DNA of 40,153 bases. Source: Salinivirgaceae bacterium (lineage in GTDB: Bacteria; Bacteroidota; Bacteroidia; Bacteroidales; SZUA-534). The stretch spans positions 1-40,153 of the forward strand of contig JAUXEM010000010.1 in the NCBI GenBank assembly GCA_030620515.1. Direction: 5' to 3'. A model generated the notes under the pieces. That model ran no database searches, was not told where the DNA came from, and saw nothing but the letters and a program-made list of their open reading frames with translations. Position numbers and translations under genes: made by a program. Position 1 is the stretch's first letter. Each line of letters begins with the position of its first letter. Positions 13,993 through 38,609 of the stretch are shown one piece after another.

Positions 13993-14622
13993 ATGCCCGA
14001 ACTGAAAGAATACGGAATTATACCAATAACACCATCGATACTTAACGAAAGCTTAAGTGCATATAAATCGCCAAAAGATAAAATTAGTTCTCTTGAAAAA
14101 TCAGGCGATTTAATACGTATTAAAAATGGCTTATATGTGGTTTCTAATAAAATAACAAATAAAAACCTATCACTTGAGCTAATCGCAAATCAAATATATG
14201 GTCCATCGTACATATCGTTTGAAAGTGCTTTATGGTATTATGGAATAATACCCGAAAGAGTTTACACTACAAAATCGGCATCAATGCAACGAGCCAAAAG
14301 TTATAATACACCAGTTGGTAATTTCGAATACATAAAAGTACCTGAAGAGTATTTTAGCATTGGCTTAAAGCATATTAATATTAAAAATGAGTACGCATTT
14401 TTAATTGCCACACCCGAAAAAGCATTGTGCGATTTAATAATGTGTACAGCTGGGTTAAGGTTACAATCGGTAAAAGCTATGCACGAATATATTTTTGAAG
14501 ACATGCGTATTGACATTGAATACATAAGCAACCTAAATTTAAATATAATTGAAGATTGCATACCATTTGGGTATAAAAAAAACGAGATGCGTCTTTTACA
14601 TAAACTATTAAGTAATGAATAG
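13993..14622 (+). CDS. AbiEi-type antitoxin, transcriptional regulator-like
   Basis: The 209-aa protein has an N-terminal winged-helix-like region (residues about 12-55, including SSLEKSGDLIRIKNGLYVVS). A core follows with IANQIYGPSYISFESALWYYGIIPE at about 72-96 and TPEKALCDLI at about 138-147, both typical of AbiEi family antitoxins. In type IV systems the antitoxin does not bind the toxin but counters its effect, and it often represses the operon. The stop overlaps the next gene by 8 bases, giving translational coupling to the nucleotidyltransferase. Family membership is clear from motifs and context. Confidence 0.85.
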   Translation: MPELKEYGIIPITPSILNESLSAYKSPKDKISSLEKSGDLIRIKNGLYVVSNKITNKNLSLELIANQIYGPSYISFESALWYYGIIPERVYTTKSASMQRAKSYNTPVGNFEYIKVPEEYFSIGLKHINIKNEYAFLIATPEKALCDLIMCTAGLRLQSVKAMHEYIFEDMRIDIEYISNLNLNIIEDCIPFGYKKNEMRLLHKLLSNE

Positions 14623-15448
14623 TGTTTTTGAACAGATGGTTGCAAAGTATACGGTTCAAACACAAGCCGACAAACTAAATGCTTACCACGAAGTGATGCA
14701 AGAAATAATTCTTTCTTCCCTGCAAAGGGAAGGATTTTTTAACCATGCCGCATTTTATGGTGGTACTTGTTTGCGTATTTTTCATAAACTCCCTCGTTTT
14801 TCAGAAGACATGGATTTTTCGCTTCTCGAAATAAACAAAAACTTTTCGCTTGAACCATACTTCGGTGCTATAGTAAAGGAATTTAAAGCTCTTGGGAGAG
14901 ATGTTACAATTAATAAAAAAGTTAAGAAGAACTTTTCGCAGGTTGAATCAGCATTTTTAAAAGACACTACCGAAGTTTATAACGTAGAATTTAAAACCGA
15001 ACGAACCGTAAAAATTAAAATTGAAGTAGATACCACTCCACCCCTTGAGTTTGCAACCGAAAACAAATTACTACTACTGCCTTTTTCGTTTATGACAAGG
15101 TGTTTTACACTGCCAAACTTATATGCAGGTAAAATGCATGCTTTGCTTTTTCGAAACTGGAAACATAGAGTAAAAGGTCGCGATTGGTACGATTTTGAAT
15201 GGTATGTAAAAAGTAGTGTAAAACTAAATTTTAATCACTTTAAAGTTCGTGCATTACAAAAAGGTTATTCAGGAAAAAACGAATTTACTAAAAAAGTATT
15301 TAAACAGTTATTACAAGAAAAAATTTCACAAACAAAAATAGAATTTGTAATAAATGATGTTAAACCATTTATAAATGACACCTCGGGCCTTGAGATATGG
15401 AGTACCGATTACTTTCTACAATTGGTTGATATGATTGTTTTTGAGTAA
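14615..15448 (+). CDS. AbiEii-type nucleotidyltransferase toxin
   Basis: The 277-aa protein carries the nucleotidyltransferase motif of the AbiEii/AbiGii (DUF1814) family. FYGGTCLRIFHKLPRFSEDMDFSL lies at about residues 47-70, with the GG and D-x-D signature. A third carboxylate region, VKIKIEVDT, is near 128-136. The C-terminal motif KMHALLFRNWKHRVKGRDWYD is near 169-189. Such toxins block growth by modifying nucleic acid, with tRNA as a proven target in some members. The key catalytic residues look intact, so the pair is probably functional. Neighbours are unrelated housekeeping genes, which fits an acquired defence module. Confidence 0.88.
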   Translation: MNSVFEQMVAKYTVQTQADKLNAYHEVMQEIILSSLQREGFFNHAAFYGGTCLRIFHKLPRFSEDMDFSLLEINKNFSLEPYFGAIVKEFKALGRDVTINKKVKKNFSQVESAFLKDTTEVYNVEFKTERTVKIKIEVDTTPPLEFATENKLLLLPFSFMTRCFTLPNLYAGKMHALLFRNWKHRVKGRDWYDFEWYVKSSVKLNFNHFKVRALQKGYSGKNEFTKKVFKQLLQEKISQTKIEFVINDVKPFINDTSGLEIWSTDYFLQLVDMIVFE

Positions 15449-31569: not shown

Positions 31570-32124
31570 CTAATTCCAAGAACAAAGAAAAACAGTTTTG
31601 GTGCTACCTTTAGACATTGATTCAATTATTTCAACATTTACTCCTTTACAGCCTGATATTTCTAAAGCCTTTTCAATCCATCCAATAATTCTGTATTCAA
31701 CTATATCGCTAGGTTCATCAAAATCACTCATTATTAGCTTAACCGTGTTCGGAGTTCTTTCACTTGTTTCCATATACGATGGACGATAATAAGCCGGTAA
31801 TATTCTACTTGCACGTTCAATAATATGTCCTGGCTTACTTACTTTAACATATAATTTATAAATTCCGTGTAAAGCAAGCTCAGCACTGTACCTACCAGAT
31901 TCCACAGCAGCCTTGTTAAAGTCATTATTAAAAAGTAAAGCTCCTATTTTTTGGGTTGTCTCAACTACTCCATGCTGCATTTCATACCAGCCTGATGTAA
32001 CTACACAATTCACTACATTTTTCGCTTCGTCTGACAAAGAATTAAACCAATCAAGAAACTTATCAGAATGAACATCTTGCACATATTCAATTATTGATTT
32101 TATAGCAGTTCCTTTTATTTCCAT
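31570..32124 (-). CDS. 184-aa protein of unknown function, possible small-molecule sensor fold
   Basis: The protein is soluble with no signal peptide. An N-terminal helical half (KSIIEYVQDVHSDKFLDWFN, residues 9-28; YEMQHGVVETTQKIGALLFN near 47-66) is followed by a mixed alpha/beta C-terminal half (NTVKLIMSDFDEP, then GVNVEIIESMSKGSTKTVFLCSW). This order resembles V4R/HNOB-like sensor domains and the DUF2378 group, but I see no diagnostic motif and do not assign it. It stands alone, with a clean intrinsic terminator at 31520-31546. Confidence 0.65.
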   Translation of the reverse strand: MEIKGTAIKSIIEYVQDVHSDKFLDWFNSLSDEAKNVVNCVVTSGWYEMQHGVVETTQKIGALLFNNDFNKAAVESGRYSAELALHGIYKLYVKVSKPGHIIERASRILPAYYRPSYMETSERTPNTVKLIMSDFDEPSDIVEYRIIGWIEKALEISGCKGVNVEIIESMSKGSTKTVFLCSWN

Positions 32125-33565: not shown

Positions 33566-35848
33566 TTATTTTTGTGTTGTTTCATTTTTTGGGGAATAAA
33601 AATATCTATCGCCTTTATAATTTATAGATGATATAAATTCCGTTACCTCAGTATATTCATTTGCCTCTTTGGCAAATTCAGGAAATACGATATCTTCGCG
33701 AGTACTAGCATGCATTGGGAGAGCAATATTTGGATTTAGTTTTTCTACAGTATATTTTACTCCTTGCTTTAAAGCAACTTTATCTCTAAAACTACAACCT
33801 GAGATTGGGAAAAAAGCTATATCAATATTACTGTAAGTTTGTGCTAAAAAGTCTATTTCACTATTATGGGCTACTGGGTTATTTCTGTTATCGTTGGCAT
33901 GGTCGCCTGGGTGATAAATAGTTACACCATCTACCTCAACTAAAAATCCTTCGCCAGCATCGGTCGATTTTATAGGTGTTACTTTAATATTGCCAACTTT
34001 TTGTGTTTCCTGAGGCTTAATGTAAGTGTATTCCGTTTCTATTTCGTCGTTAAAGCCCATAACATAGGTAATGTCTTCCACATTATTTTTCCAATCAAAA
34101 ATTGACTTGTCGTAATGGTCGCTATGATTATGCGATACAAAAACAGTAACTTTTTGATCTTTCATTTCTTCAGCACATATATAACCATTGTTTACGCAAG
34201 GCTTATCGGGTGCAGCATTTGGTTGCCAATAATCGAAAACTAATAAATTATTCTGAGTTTTAACAGCCCATCCGCTATGATTCAAATACCACACAGTAGC
34301 TTCTCCATTTTTAACCTCTTTATGACAATAATTGGGCATATTAAATACCTGTTCTGGAGCACCAGCTGCAAGAAGTTTCTTGGCAGTATTTAAATTTCCA
34401 TAATAATTCGCATAATATAATGGAGTATTTCCCAAATTATCTTTTGCTTTTACATCGCCACCATTTTCAATTAGTTTATCTATTACATCGCAAAAACCAC
34501 ATATGGCTGCTAAATGAACAACTGTTTTTCCAGTTTTATCTTTAAGTGAAATATCAACTTTTTGGTTAACTAAATAGTTAGCAATTTCTTTTTTTTCACG
34601 TTTTATGGCATGATGTAATGGTGTTTTTCCATATTTATCTTGCTTGTTTAAATCAGCGCCTCCATCAACCAAAGCCCTTACGCAATCAATGCATCTGCCA
34701 AAAGTGGAAATATGTAAAGGCGTTTGCTTATCGGCATTTAGAGCATTTACATTAGCTCCCTGTTTAATAAGGTATTTTACTATTTCGGGGTTACGCCAAA
34801 CACTATTATGCAATGGTGAACCATCTACCTTATTACAACCTTCTGCCAAACAATCTTTTGGATTAACTTTTGCACCATTCCTTACCATTAACTCCACGGC
34901 TCGTAAATTTCCCGATGAAGCAGCATCGTTTATAGGAGTAGCGCCATTAGAATTGTGTGCATTAATATCACATTCTTTTTCAATTAAATATTCTATTAAT
35001 TCCGCATTTCCTGTTCGTGCAGCAGAATGTAAGCAATTTCCACCAGTGCTATTTTTAGTATCAGGGCTTATTCCTAACTCAAAAAATGCTTTGCTTGTAT
35101 TAAGTTTTCCCCATTCTAATCCAATTTGCAATGGAGTTGCACCTTTATTGTTCTTTTCATTAATGTCGTATTTCTTTTTGTTTACCAAATGCTTTACCAT
35201 TTGTGTACTTTCTCCACTTGCAGCCCAATGAAGTGGCCCATCGCCATCATTGTCTCTAACATCACGTGAAACTCCTTTCTCCTCATACCTATCGTAAATA
35301 GCGGTATTTCCACCTAAAGCACTCCACATTAGCAAGCTAGCATTATTGCTTACTATTGCCATATAATCTGCACCATTCTTTTCTAAATAAACAGCCGTTT
35401 CAAAATCACCACTCCATGCAGCAAAATTTATAGGCATAGTGCCATCAGCAACTTTTTCATTCACCGAAACACCCTTTTCAATCAGCAATTTAACTAGGTC
35501 AATATTTCCATTTTTGGCAGCAAGGTGTATTGCCTGATACCCTTGTGCATTTTTGAAATGAATATTAGCACCCTTTTTTACAAGGTATTTTGCAATTTCA
35601 GTTTGATCTGCATTTGCTGCAAATAATAAAGGAGAAAACCCTTGTTCGTTTGTTTCTTCAAGCAAATTGGGATGATTTGAAAGGTACATCTTCACTTTTT
35701 CAATATCGCCTGTATTAATTGCCTCGAAGTATTCTTGCTTTTGTGCATCTTCGAACTCAATAACTCTAGAATAGGTTGAATTTACACATAGTAGCAATAT
35801 AAATACCATAAGTAAACAAGCTGAGAAATAATTTTTTTTCGTATTCAT
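33566..35848 (-). CDS. Exported ankyrin-repeat protein fused to a metallo-beta-lactamase-fold hydrolase
   Basis: I place the start at the ATG at 35848 (760 aa). The frame opens 17 codons earlier but that would nearly touch the upstream operator. Residues 1-27 form a signal peptide. About 13 ankyrin repeats cover residues 60-505 (for example KTPLHHAIKREKKEIANYLV), preceded by a capping repeat. The C-terminal domain (about 512-745) is an MBL-fold hydrolase with YLNHSGWAV, the metal motif HNHSDHYD near 571-578, IYHPGDHAND and PMHAST, closest to UlaG-like members. Metal ligands look intact. An exported ankyrin array joined to an MBL enzyme is unusual. The gene appears to be under the neighbouring LytTR pair. 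Confidence 0.88.
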   Translation of the reverse strand: MNTKKNYFSACLLMVFILLLCVNSTYSRVIEFEDAQKQEYFEAINTGDIEKVKMYLSNHPNLLEETNEQGFSPLLFAANADQTEIAKYLVKKGANIHFKNAQGYQAIHLAAKNGNIDLVKLLIEKGVSVNEKVADGTMPINFAAWSGDFETAVYLEKNGADYMAIVSNNASLLMWSALGGNTAIYDRYEEKGVSRDVRDNDGDGPLHWAASGESTQMVKHLVNKKKYDINEKNNKGATPLQIGLEWGKLNTSKAFFELGISPDTKNSTGGNCLHSAARTGNAELIEYLIEKECDINAHNSNGATPINDAASSGNLRAVELMVRNGAKVNPKDCLAEGCNKVDGSPLHNSVWRNPEIVKYLIKQGANVNALNADKQTPLHISTFGRCIDCVRALVDGGADLNKQDKYGKTPLHHAIKREKKEIANYLVNQKVDISLKDKTGKTVVHLAAICGFCDVIDKLIENGGDVKAKDNLGNTPLYYANYYGNLNTAKKLLAAGAPEQVFNMPNYCHKEVKNGEATVWYLNHSGWAVKTQNNLLVFDYWQPNAAPDKPCVNNGYICAEEMKDQKVTVFVSHNHSDHYDKSIFDWKNNVEDITYVMGFNDEIETEYTYIKPQETQKVGNIKVTPIKSTDAGEGFLVEVDGVTIYHPGDHANDNRNNPVAHNSEIDFLAQTYSNIDIAFFPISGCSFRDKVALKQGVKYTVEKLNPNIALPMHASTREDIVFPEFAKEANEYTEVTEFISSINYKGDRYFYSPKNETTQK

Positions 35849-35916
35849 AGCTTCAGTTTTTTGATTTATACATACAAAGTTCAGGTATGTTACTCCCAAA
35901 ATAAAGTAGTATTCTA

Positions 35917-35944
35917 TAAGCGGTTAATTCTTCCGACAAACGGT
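35917..35944 (-). promoter_or_regulatory. Candidate LytTR operator, site 1 (ankyrin-MBL gene)
   Basis: On the minus strand: ACCGTTTG, 12 bases, ACCGCTTA. The half-sites are 20 bp apart and the site ends 68 bases before the chosen ATG. The proximal half is identical in sites 2 and 3. Confidence 0.6.
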
Positions 35945-36002
35945 TTATAAAATTTAAACTACTGCTAAAATAAAGAGTCATAAAAAAATAAAACGTTACA
36001 AA

Positions 36003-36029
36003 AAAGCCCAACAAAAATTGCTGAGCTTT
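36003..36029 (-). terminator. Intrinsic terminator of the small membrane protein transcript
   Basis: On the minus strand AAAGCTCAGCA and TGTTGGGCTTT pair over 11 positions with G-U pairs, around a 5-base loop, followed by TTTTGT. It separates the short gene at 36252-36437 from the ankyrin-MBL promoter. Confidence 0.65.
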
Positions 36030-36097
36030 ATAATTTGTTATAGAAATGGTTTTAAGGATTTATTATAATATGGTAATTAAGGGTTAACTCATAACTA

Positions 36098-36238
36098 GTG
36101 TTTGCAAGAAAACTCAGTCTCAGATAAGAAAGCTACAATAATGAGGCTTTCGACGCATTGAAAATCAGGAGTTTACTTTTGCAAATGACTGATTGAGATG
36201 CAAGAATAACGAAATTAGTGGAGTTTTATTGCTGAGAC
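36098..36238 (+). mobile_element. MITE-like element, copy B
   Basis: The 141-bp element begins GTGTTTGCAAGAAAACTCA and ends with the partly complementary GGAGTTTTATTGCTGAGAC. TAACTA repeats on both sides (36092-36097 and 36239-36244), as a target-site duplication would. It shares GCAAGAAAACTCAGTCTC, GATAAGAAAGCT and GGAGTTTACTTT with copy A in the same order. It is non-coding and lies in the 3' untranslated region of the small gene at 36252-36437. Confidence 0.65.
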
Positions 36239-36251
36239 TAACTAAGTTCTT

Positions 36252-36437
36252 TTATAAAGTTGGAAATATAGAATCACATGCTTTTTTATCTAAAAAATTA
36301 TCATCTATATCAATACAAATAATTTCTTTCTTTTCAATTTTAACATCATTACTAGCACTTTCCATTTTGTCCATAGTGCTTAATAGTATTCCGGCTGTAA
36401 AACCTAAGCTTAATAATATAATAACAAGTGCATTCAT
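36252..36437 (-). CDS. 61-aa membrane-anchored small protein, likely LytTR-regulated
   Basis: The protein has one N-terminal hydrophobic helix (residues 1-19, MNALVIILLSLGFTAGILL). An acidic, polar tail of about 40 residues with two Cys (CIDIDDNFLDKKACDS) follows. The tail would be outside the cytoplasm if the helix is a signal anchor. I recognise no family, and codon-level evidence alone is weak for so short a frame. What supports it is context: operator site 2 lies 72 bases upstream in the same geometry as the kinase and ankyrin-MBL genes, and a terminator lies downstream. It could be a signal peptide-like modulator of the kinase. Confidence 0.5.
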   Translation of the reverse strand: MNALVIILLSLGFTAGILLSTMDKMESASNDVKIEKKEIICIDIDDNFLDKKACDSIFPTL

Positions 36438-36509
36438 AACAAATTGGTATTAATTAATATTCTATAACAAATCTCTGAATACTTTATACACCATGAAAGT
36501 GATTTCCGA

Positions 36510-36537
36510 TAAGCGGTTAAATTATCCGATAAGTGGT
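36510..36537 (-). promoter_or_regulatory. Candidate LytTR operator, site 2 (small protein gene)
   Basis: On the minus strand: ACCACTTA, 12 bases, ACCGCTTA. It is the best-conserved of the three sites; the flanking TCGG is also repeated. It ends 72 bases before the ATG at 36437. Confidence 0.65.
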
Positions 36538-36714
36538 AAATTTTGGAATGACAGAATATAGCAGACAGAATTTATAATTGGATAAGCGCTTCACATAAAA
36601 CAGTGTACTAAGCAGTTATGCTTAACCTATATATAACAATAACTATTAAATTGTACACAACAACTAGATCATAAGCTCTCTTAAGCCCTCACTATCTATG
36701 GCTTTACTGGCTTA

Positions 36715-36742
36715 ACCTTTTAACGACTTATTTAACCGCTTA
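36715..36742 (+). promoter_or_regulatory. Candidate LytTR operator, site 3 (kinase gene)
   Basis: On the plus strand: ACCTTTTA, 12 bases, ACCGCTTA. The distal half is more diverged. It ends 60 bases before the kinase ATG, suggesting autoregulation. Confidence 0.55.
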
Positions 36743-36802
36743 TCTTTTTTCTGTTTCTTCGTATTAATTAATACCTTAATATTGCAGTAAAATTAAACTG
36801 CT

Positions 36803-37888
36803 ATGCAAAAACTAAATTCAAATAAACTTTTCTGGATACTTCAAATTGGTGGTTGGGGAGTGTATTTTATTCTATATACATTTATATTGCATATGAACAG
36901 TAAAAAAGGATTTCAACTAGATTCGTTTTTACTATACATGCTTACATATGTTATTGCATTTTTATGTACTGTAGGTTTAAGGTATGCATATCGTTATTAC
37001 TACAAAAATAATGAGAAACTAATTTATATACCCGTACTTATATTTATAGCTACTCTTGTAACTGCCGGTGTTTTGCATTTTGTTGATTTGTACGTAAGTC
37101 ACTATTTTTGGGGTGAAGAGGGTATTGCAATATTAAAAAAGAGACTTAACTTTTTTTGGTTTGTTAAAACCCAGTACCTACACATGATACTATTGGCAGG
37201 GTGGAGTTCGCTTTACTTTGCATTAAAATATGCAATGGATTGGCAAAAAGAAAAGCTTCGCTCAAAAGATGCTGAAGCAATGGCACAAAAGGCTCAAATG
37301 GAGATGCTTCGTTATCAGTTAAACCCACATTTTTTATTCAATTCATTAAATTCTATTCGTGCTTTAGTAGATGAGAATCAAGCCCATGCAAAAGAAATGA
37401 TTACAGAGCTAGCAGAATTTTTGCGTTATTCGTTGCTGCATAAAGACACAACCTTTGTAACTTTATTAAATGAACTAGAGGCTGTAAAACATTATTTCTC
37501 TATAGAGAAAAAGCGATTTGAGGAGAAACTTGAAATTAAATATAATATTGACGATAATGTTCGTAATGTTCAAATACTTAGCTTTTTGCTTCACCCATTA
37601 ATTGAGAATGCGGTAAAGTATGGAATGAAAACTAGTACCATGCCTCTTAAAATTAGTGTTAGCGCACAAAAAACCGGCGTTGGTTTAATGCTTGAAATAT
37701 GCAACTCAGGCAAATGGATTGACCCAAATGGCGATGAAAAACATTCGGGAGGTACTGGTACCGGACTTAAAAATGTAGAGAAACGCCTTAAAAATGCATA
37801 CCAAAATGGATACCGTTTTGAAGTACTTAAAGACGAAAAAAATATTTGCATCAGAATAGAAATTAAAGAGGAGTATTTACATGGCTAA
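36803..37888 (+). CDS. LytS/YehU-type sensor histidine kinase
   Basis: The 361-aa protein has four membrane helices (about residues 10-30, 40-65, 73-98 and 118-145). A cytoplasmic His_kinase domain (PF06580 type) follows. The phospho-acceptor His is in LNPHFLFNSLNSIR at about residue 176. The ATP-binding domain has LLHPLIENAVKYG near 260-272 and GTGTGLKNVEKRL near 317-329. There is no separate sensor domain outside the membrane; sensing would be by the helices. It overlaps the response regulator gene by 8 bases. Confidence 0.93.
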   Translation: MQKLNSNKLFWILQIGGWGVYFILYTFILHMNSKKGFQLDSFLLYMLTYVIAFLCTVGLRYAYRYYYKNNEKLIYIPVLIFIATLVTAGVLHFVDLYVSHYFWGEEGIAILKKRLNFFWFVKTQYLHMILLAGWSSLYFALKYAMDWQKEKLRSKDAEAMAQKAQMEMLRYQLNPHFLFNSLNSIRALVDENQAHAKEMITELAEFLRYSLLHKDTTFVTLLNELEAVKHYFSIEKKRFEEKLEIKYNIDDNVRNVQILSFLLHPLIENAVKYGMKTSTMPLKISVSAQKTGVGLMLEICNSGKWIDPNGDEKHSGGTGTGLKNVEKRLKNAYQNGYRFEVLKDEKNICIRIEIKEEYLHG

Positions 37889-38609
37889 TAAAAAATACAA
37901 GGCACTAGTTGTTGACGATGAAAGGTTAGCTCGTAAAGACCTAACTAACATGCTAATAGAATTAAACCAAGTTGAGGTTGTTGGAGAGGCTGAGGATGTT
38001 CCATCTGCTTTGAAAGCAATAGAAGAACTTAAACCCGATATTGTTTTTTTAGATATACAAATGCCTGGTCAAAGTGGGTTCGACCTAGTAGAACAAGTAG
38101 ATTTTCCGGGTAAAGTGATTTTTGTTACGGCTTATGATGAATTTGCACTACGCGCTTTTGAAATAAATGCGCTCGACTATTTAATGAAACCCGTAAATAA
38201 AGACCGCCTTAAAAAATCGATTGAAAGAATAGAACTTAATGAACCTACATCAATAAAAGTATATCCTAAACTGCAATATAACGATCGGCTGTTTACAACG
38301 CTAGGCAACAAAGTGCAATTTTTGAAAGTTAATACAATTGTACATATTCAGGCAGAGGGCGATTATACTATGGTAGTTACCTCAGAAGGAACAAAAGGTC
38401 TTATTACAAAAACCATGAAAGAATGGGAAGAGCGGCTTCCGGATAACTTCTTTTGCCGTGTGCACCGGAATTCAATAATTAATACTGAATTTATTGTAGA
38501 GGTTGAGAAATGGTTTAACTATTCGTACCAAGCAAAACTAAAAGGCGTTGAAGAGCCCATTATTATTAGTCGTAGATATGCAAAAAAACTAAAAGATTTA
38601 TTTCAGTAG
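37881..38609 (+). CDS. LytTR-type response regulator
   Basis: The 242-aa protein has a receiver domain (residues about 7-125): acidic pocket VVDDE at 10-14, phospho-acceptor Asp in FLDIQMPG at about 58, FVTAYDEFALRAF, and Lys in LMKPV near 108. A LytTR DNA-binding domain covers about 140-242, with VNTIVHIQAEGDYTMVV, RVHRNSIIN and IISRRYAKKLKDL. LytTR proteins bind direct repeats about two helical turns apart, which fits the three 20-bp repeats found nearby. The start overlaps the kinase gene, so both are produced together. Confidence 0.95.
   Translation: MANKKYKALVVDDERLARKDLTNMLIELNQVEVVGEAEDVPSALKAIEELKPDIVFLDIQMPGQSGFDLVEQVDFPGKVIFVTAYDEFALRAFEINALDYLMKPVNKDRLKKSIERIELNEPTSIKVYPKLQYNDRLFTTLGNKVQFLKVNTIVHIQAEGDYTMVVTSEGTKGLITKTMKEWEERLPDNFFCRVHRNSIINTEFIVEVEKWFNYSYQAKLKGVEEPIIISRRYAKKLKDLFQ

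Follow-up and report, generated by a model that had tools for sequence, protein, structure and literature searches.

A stretch of 40,153 nucleotides from a Salinivirgaceae bacterium (GCA_030620515.1, contig JAUXEM010000010.1, forward strand; coded G000 in the comparisons), hereafter the window, carries three similar direct repeats ahead of unrelated genes, which raises the question of which regulator acts on them and how far its control extends. The original prediction took them for LytTR operators oriented towards their genes, through which the adjacent response regulator would control three local units, including its own. The operators read ACCTTTTAA-11-ACCGCTTAT for the kinase-regulator operon (36715-36745, plus strand), ACCACTTAT-11-ACCGCTTAT for a gene encoding a 61-aa protein (36507-36537, minus strand) and ACCGTTTGT-11-ACCGCTTAT for a gene encoding an ankyrin-MBL protein (35914-35944, minus strand). 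Re-reading the sequence confirmed the coordinates, the strands and the 20-bp period of all three sites, and the proposed 60-72 nt between the 28-bp motif and the start codon proved to be 60 nt for the kinase, 68 nt for the ankyrin-MBL gene (taking the ATG at 35848 as start codon) and 72 nt for the 61-aa gene. The half-site is longer than originally given and reads RCCRYTYAWCG. The exact pattern ACCNNTTN-N12-ACCGCTTA occurred three times within the window and not once in 100 dinucleotide shuffles, and the whole 3.93-Mb genome contained four matches, three of them in the window, compared to none in the reversed control. A related pattern with three mismatches gave 100 matches against 156 for the control, and a looser pattern with two mismatches 40 against 75, both of which are noise. 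The 28-mer alone with two to three mismatches was dropped as a genome scan for the same reason.

The system next to the repeats is of the LytS/LytTR two-component kind, in which a His_kinase (PF06580) sensor adjoins a receiver-LytTR regulator. The LytS-type sensor histidine kinase (36803-37888, plus strand, 361 aa) has a hydrophobic N-terminal half; Pfam identified the His_kinase domain, a sub-threshold HATPase_c and one further match at chance level, and no GAF domain was found in Pfam at E <= 0.1. The response regulator (37881-38609, plus strand, 242 aa), with Response_reg and LytTR domains above the Pfam cut-off, is the proposed binder and activator. Divergent from this operon lies the gene of the 61-aa protein (36252-36437, minus strand), which has one N-terminal hydrophobic segment. 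The third unit (33566-35848, minus strand) encodes a 760-aa ankyrin-repeat protein with a C-terminal metallo-beta-lactamase-fold domain (HxHxDH) and, by eye, a signal peptide. Identity of the latter gene with a Dot/Icm effector was rejected, as the NCBIfam scores were far below cut-off and were taken as repeat similarity.

To describe the surroundings of the repeats, 22 promoters were aligned from site to start codon, with the sites chosen without using the -7 element. All 22 contain two direct repeats, 9-mers 11 bp apart, the 20-bp period having been part of the search. In the composite layout, the 9-bp repeats with their 11-bp gap are followed after 10 bp by a TTT-like -33 and, after a further 19 bp, by a -7-like element. 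The latter begins 31 nt past the 31-bp site in 21 of the 22 promoters and 32 nt past it in one; the -33 is weaker than the -7 and starts with TTT in 17/22. In the window, the kinase-operon promoter (36754-36784, plus strand) has TTTC at 36754-36757, 19 bp and TAATATTG at 36777-36784; that of the 61-aa gene (36468-36498, minus strand) has TTTC at 36498-36495, 19 bp and GAGATTTG at 36475-36468; and that of the ankyrin-MBL gene (35875-35905, minus strand) has TTTA at 35905-35902, 19 bp and GAACTTTG at 35882-35875. The five promoters of G000, which precede unrelated genes, all have at a common offset an element that matches KAnnTTTG with no more than one mismatch, and none of 20,000 dinucleotide shuffles did so, although this motif was defined only once these same five had been viewed; with the strict TAnnTTTG, four of the five share the offset, again compared to 0/20,000 dinucleotide shuffles. 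Across seven kinase and seven small-gene promoters, pairwise identity was 74-84% in the half-sites, 90-93% in the -7 and 74-79% in the -33, and 28% in the 60 nt directly upstream. The failure of the 28-mer at two to three mismatches to exceed its reversed control would be expected if the repeats reflected chance or a mobile repeat devoid of function. However, unrelated genes in seven genomes, and in additional families, share a fixed distance between the repeats and the -7 with no conservation of the flanks, and such an origin is hardly credible.

The same geometry bears on the direction of control. A bound regulator could also repress its targets, as does the LytTR protein CoxC from repeats that overlap the -35 box (PMC11347149). 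The repeats aligned here do not overlap the -33 and stop 10 bp (21/22) or 11 bp (1/22) before it, similar to those of HdrR, a shown activator of its own operon, which end 8 bp before the -35 (PMC6193735). In addition, the -7 departs from the published consensus TAnnTTTG, which is accompanied by TTTG near -33 (PMC7366714), in all 22 promoters, as would be expected if such promoters required an activator: the kinase promoters have TAnnATTG in six cases and TATAATTG in one, and the 15 others GAnnTTTG or GAnnTTTA. Repression by the adjacent regulator therefore appears improbable, and activation is the reading we prefer.

Conservation was followed in a family set of 20 genomes including G000, of which seven (G000 and six others) have an orthologue of the regulator and 13 do not. 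The six are metagenome-assembled genomes labelled Salinivirgaceae (2), Bacteroidetes bacterium (2), Marinilabiliales (1) and Rikenella (1). Their regulators are 67-77% identical to that of the window (n=6); the search of the family set itself gave 68-77%, with the next matches near 40%. Their kinases are 63-73% identical (n=6). Alignment of the orthologous regions, which the original prediction had proposed as a check, revealed a site with the 20-bp period ahead of the kinase in 6/6 loci. A site also precedes the small gene in all six relatives holding the system: in five of the six loci, a gene for a 63-64-aa relative of the small protein, with its own site, adjoins the kinase divergently, and in the sixth (G003) the small gene is located elsewhere and has the site there. 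The relatives of the small protein likewise have a single N-terminal hydrophobic segment, and the protein family was detected in 7/7 family genomes with the kinase and 0/13 without it (E <= 0.001). Ankyrin genes with a site occur in three relatives, adjoining the small gene in G001, where the contig ends within the ankyrin gene, close to the locus in G006 and at an unlinked position in G003. No MBL part of the ankyrin protein was detected in G002, G004 (a 65% complete genome) or G005. The genome comparisons support both the identity and orientation of the operators and the predicted control of all three units, the regulator's own included, by the adjacent regulator.

Specificity was addressed by two models, each scan scoring, in every genome, 150 candidates out of the several thousand that a first look produced, so that neither the target lists nor the absences are exhaustive. 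A sequence-only model from 17 sites, run over 13 genomes (seven with the orthologue, six without), gave 20 matches of 20-32 bits, all in the seven orthologue genomes, 17 of them being the training sites; the six genomes without orthologue did not exceed 15.4 bits among the candidates scored. The three new matches precede a small gene (G003:C23:6975), an ankyrin gene (G003:C23:58582) and a TonB-C-like gene (G001:C429:2796). A composite model of site and promoter (73 bp) was run over 17 genomes of the family. The 22 training promoters scored 38-58 bits, the best new match among the candidates scored 25.7 bits, and the ten family genomes without orthologue at most 16.2 bits among the 150 candidates scored in each. 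The 73-bp composite gave a clean separation: with the matrix trained without G000, the five promoters of G000 scored 39-60 bits, and among 46 candidate loci (131 kb) the 41 in which no such promoter was the best place scored at most 3.8 bits. Promoters scored 30-60 bits on leaving out one genome at a time and 22-59 bits on leaving out one gene class, compared to at most 3.7 bits in the reversed control (131 kb).

These scans also speak to the possibility that the sites are LytTR operators belonging to another LytTR paralogue of the genome. The regulator finds 22 matches in G000, one of them itself (E <= 0.001), so that systems of this kind are common in this genome, and LytTR operators are broadly alike (PMC6193735). 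However, the sites track the orthologue of the adjacent regulator, occurring in 7/7 family genomes that hold it, whereas the ten genomes without it, with no score above 16.2 bits among the 150 candidates examined in each, still contain 11-24 matches to the regulator apiece.

The regulon had been proposed to be local. The three local units stand, but control does not appear to be confined to them, as two further sites are present in G000: C164:45006, an exact-pattern match ahead of an esterase gene, and C169:7193, found with mismatches ahead of a TonB-C-like gene. Both rest on the composite model, because the sequence-only model did not have the first among its matches listed and scored the second at 13.5 bits, within its noise. 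The TonB-C-like protein lies below the Pfam cut-off; its predicted fold (mean pLDDT 78.9) matched TonB C-terminal domains best, with E-values of 0.0036 and worse. All eleven other TonB-C-like loci examined were without a site (11/11), so that control would be specific to one subgroup. In G006:C190 (L061:3899-4881), the TonB-C-like gene occurs in two tandem copies, and only the second has its own operator. Several candidates were rejected, C64:23373 being inside a reading frame and without promoter elements, and the matches of 20-22 bits in G002:C26, G004:C76 and G006:C358 likewise lying within reading frames. Further matches of the composite model were G003:C34:249056 (21.0 bits) and G114:C12:19441 (20.3 bits). 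The new match of 25.7 bits (G003:C15:130260-130330, minus strand; L141:5261-5331) stands ahead of a SusC-like receptor and is a possible further target; a -7-like element is in place, the first half-site is out of the 20-bp register, and the promoter script chose another place in this locus as best.

Outside the family, five of 247 genomes drawn from the order, besides G000, contained a kinase at E <= 1e-60. Paired divergent sites were identified in G114, G115 and G215, whose kinases are 52-59% identical, and in G147 (42%), whereas four of five kinases at 36-42% identity had no site or weak ones. In all four genomes the sites precede the relative's own kinase operon, which is a further argument against a paralogue as the binder, and we consider that assignment improbable; the adjacent regulator remains the preferred candidate. 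In G115 and G215, the divergent gene encodes an ankyrin-MBL protein with 37-38% identity to its counterpart in the window, and the top two composite-model matches in each genome are these divergent kinase/ankyrin-MBL promoters. In G114, the divergent gene is TonB-C-like, as is the gene after the best composite match (23.3 bits); the kinase site of this genome reached 18.8 bits genome-wide, near noise given a best score of 18.4 bits in a genome without a close kinase. The G147 sites were absent among the composite-model matches listed. In nine of nine promoters checked in the four genomes, a -7-like element with at most one mismatch to KAnnTTTG was found at an offset of 31 (8) or 32 (1), and the -33 starts with TTT in 6/9. 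The rigid rule 9-11-9, 10, -33, 19, -7 applies in one family and extends, with the -33 less strict, to promoters from as many as three further families; it offers a way to read the targets of an orphan system from sequence. Matches to the small protein outside the family (G115, G353; 393 order genomes) were weak, by eye formed parts of other proteins, and were discarded.

Published LytTR operators are pairs of direct repeats, each about 9-11 bp long, with 10-13 bp between them (PMC4847170, PMC11347149). The repeats of the window agree with this in length and spacing, and they fit the geometry of an activating LytTR operator in lying about 10 bp ahead of the -35/-33 and in preceding the regulator's own operon. 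The closest published operator found is that of Streptococcus mutans BrsR, ACCACTTAT-12-ACCGCTTAT, with nearly identical 9-bp repeats (PMC6193735, Table 2); those of Treponema bryantii, ACCACTTAT-11-GCCACTTAT, are nearly identical as well (PMC6193735). As sequence and geometry match these published operators, the window repeats belong to the known LytTR operator kind. The LytTR regulatory systems (LRS, HdrR/BrsR) of S. mutans and others resemble the window system in combining autoregulation with other target genes that have repeats; their repeats are mostly 8-11 bp before the promoter, favouring 10 bp before the -35, and HdrR demonstrably binds its repeats and activates the operon that encodes it (PMC6193735). 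However, the LRS spacing is mostly 12 bp, compared to 11 bp in the window, and an LRS regulator shares its operon with an inhibitory membrane protein instead of a kinase (PMC6193735), whereas that of the window follows a histidine kinase and the 61-aa gene is separate and divergent. Because it has a kinase-regulator pair, the window system is not an LRS. LRS-like operons of Bacteroides thetaiotaomicron and B. ovatus share the 11-bp spacing, with repeats 11 bp before a Bacteroidia promoter that has a 19-bp spacer, TGTA-19-TATCTTTG (PMC6193735, Table 3), but differ in repeat sequence, in having 11-bp repeats and a membrane-bound LytTR regulator, and in lacking a kinase; these are described from sequence only (PMC6193735).

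In its protein pair, the window system corresponds to BtsS/BtsR and YpdA/YpdB of Escherichia coli, which also consist of a LytS-type kinase and a LytTR regulator, YpdB binding the direct repeat GGCATTTCAT (PMC5552118, PMC4847170, PMC5431176). The regulator matched the NCBIfam BtsR model over its full length with 173 bits, below the cut-off of 246 bits. The YehU kinase architecture includes a GAF domain (PMC3875573), unlike the window kinase, and no pyruvate transporter is among the targets found, in contrast to BtsS/BtsR. The letters of a BtsR motif to which the original prediction had likened the repeats were not found in the parts of the BtsR/YpdB literature searched. The letters CCGTTTGTC of algD-RB3, an AlgR site of Pseudomonas aeruginosa, recur within the first half-site of the ankyrin-MBL operator, but the AlgR sites of algD stand singly at -470, -394 and -45, unlike the repeats of the window (PMC4064291). 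In the papers searched, neither a description of the window system nor a LytTR two-component operator characterised in Bacteroidota came up. Switches of this type are known, while the set of target genes is uncharacterised.

Taken together, the comparisons make it highly probable that the adjacent LytTR regulator, through these repeats, activates the operon that encodes it along with a small regulon of membrane and exported proteins. The kinase would phosphorylate the regulator, and two molecules of the regulator would then each occupy a half-site. The half-sites are spaced by about two turns of the helix and stop 10 bp short of the -33, where the bound molecules would assist RNA polymerase in initiating at a sub-optimal -7 element. 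The kinase-regulator operon would thereby be switched on by its own regulator in a positive feedback. The genes of the divergent 61-aa membrane protein and of the ankyrin-MBL protein would be switched on as well, as would those of the esterase and the small TonB-C-like protein at other places in the genome. We infer the binding by the adjacent regulator, the dependence on phosphorylation, activation rather than repression and the positive feedback from sequence. The regulon seems to act at the membrane and beyond, because its products have either signal peptides, recognised by eye in the ankyrin-MBL, TonB-C-like and esterase proteins, or a hydrophobic segment. One sensor is in this way linked to two proteins, a small orphan membrane protein and an ankyrin-MBL protein, whose functions thereby become testable. 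The 61-66-aa protein is under the operator each time in the seven kinase-holding family genomes; speculatively, and with considerable doubt, it might act on the kinase as a feedback modulator and, with the ankyrin-MBL and TonB-C-like proteins, make up an uncharacterised envelope response that several families of the order have retained.

Other features of the window were recorded in passing. At 13993-15448, a gene pair resembles an AbiEi/AbiEii toxin-antitoxin system; the first gene gave an AbiEi match of 47 of 150 bits, below cut-off, and the second, without an NCBIfam match, was named AbiEii by eye. A 184-aa gene without a confident Pfam family lies at 31570-32124 and, by eye, has relatives on the kinase-locus contigs of G001 (L062:9575) and G004 (L064:5291). 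Finally, an identical 14-mer with a palindromic core, TATTAATTAATACC, by eye absent from the other aligned promoters, occurs in the promoters of the 61-aa gene (36446-36459, minus strand) and the kinase (36762-36775, plus strand), in the same orientation relative to each gene and with a mean of 0.00 in 100 shuffles.
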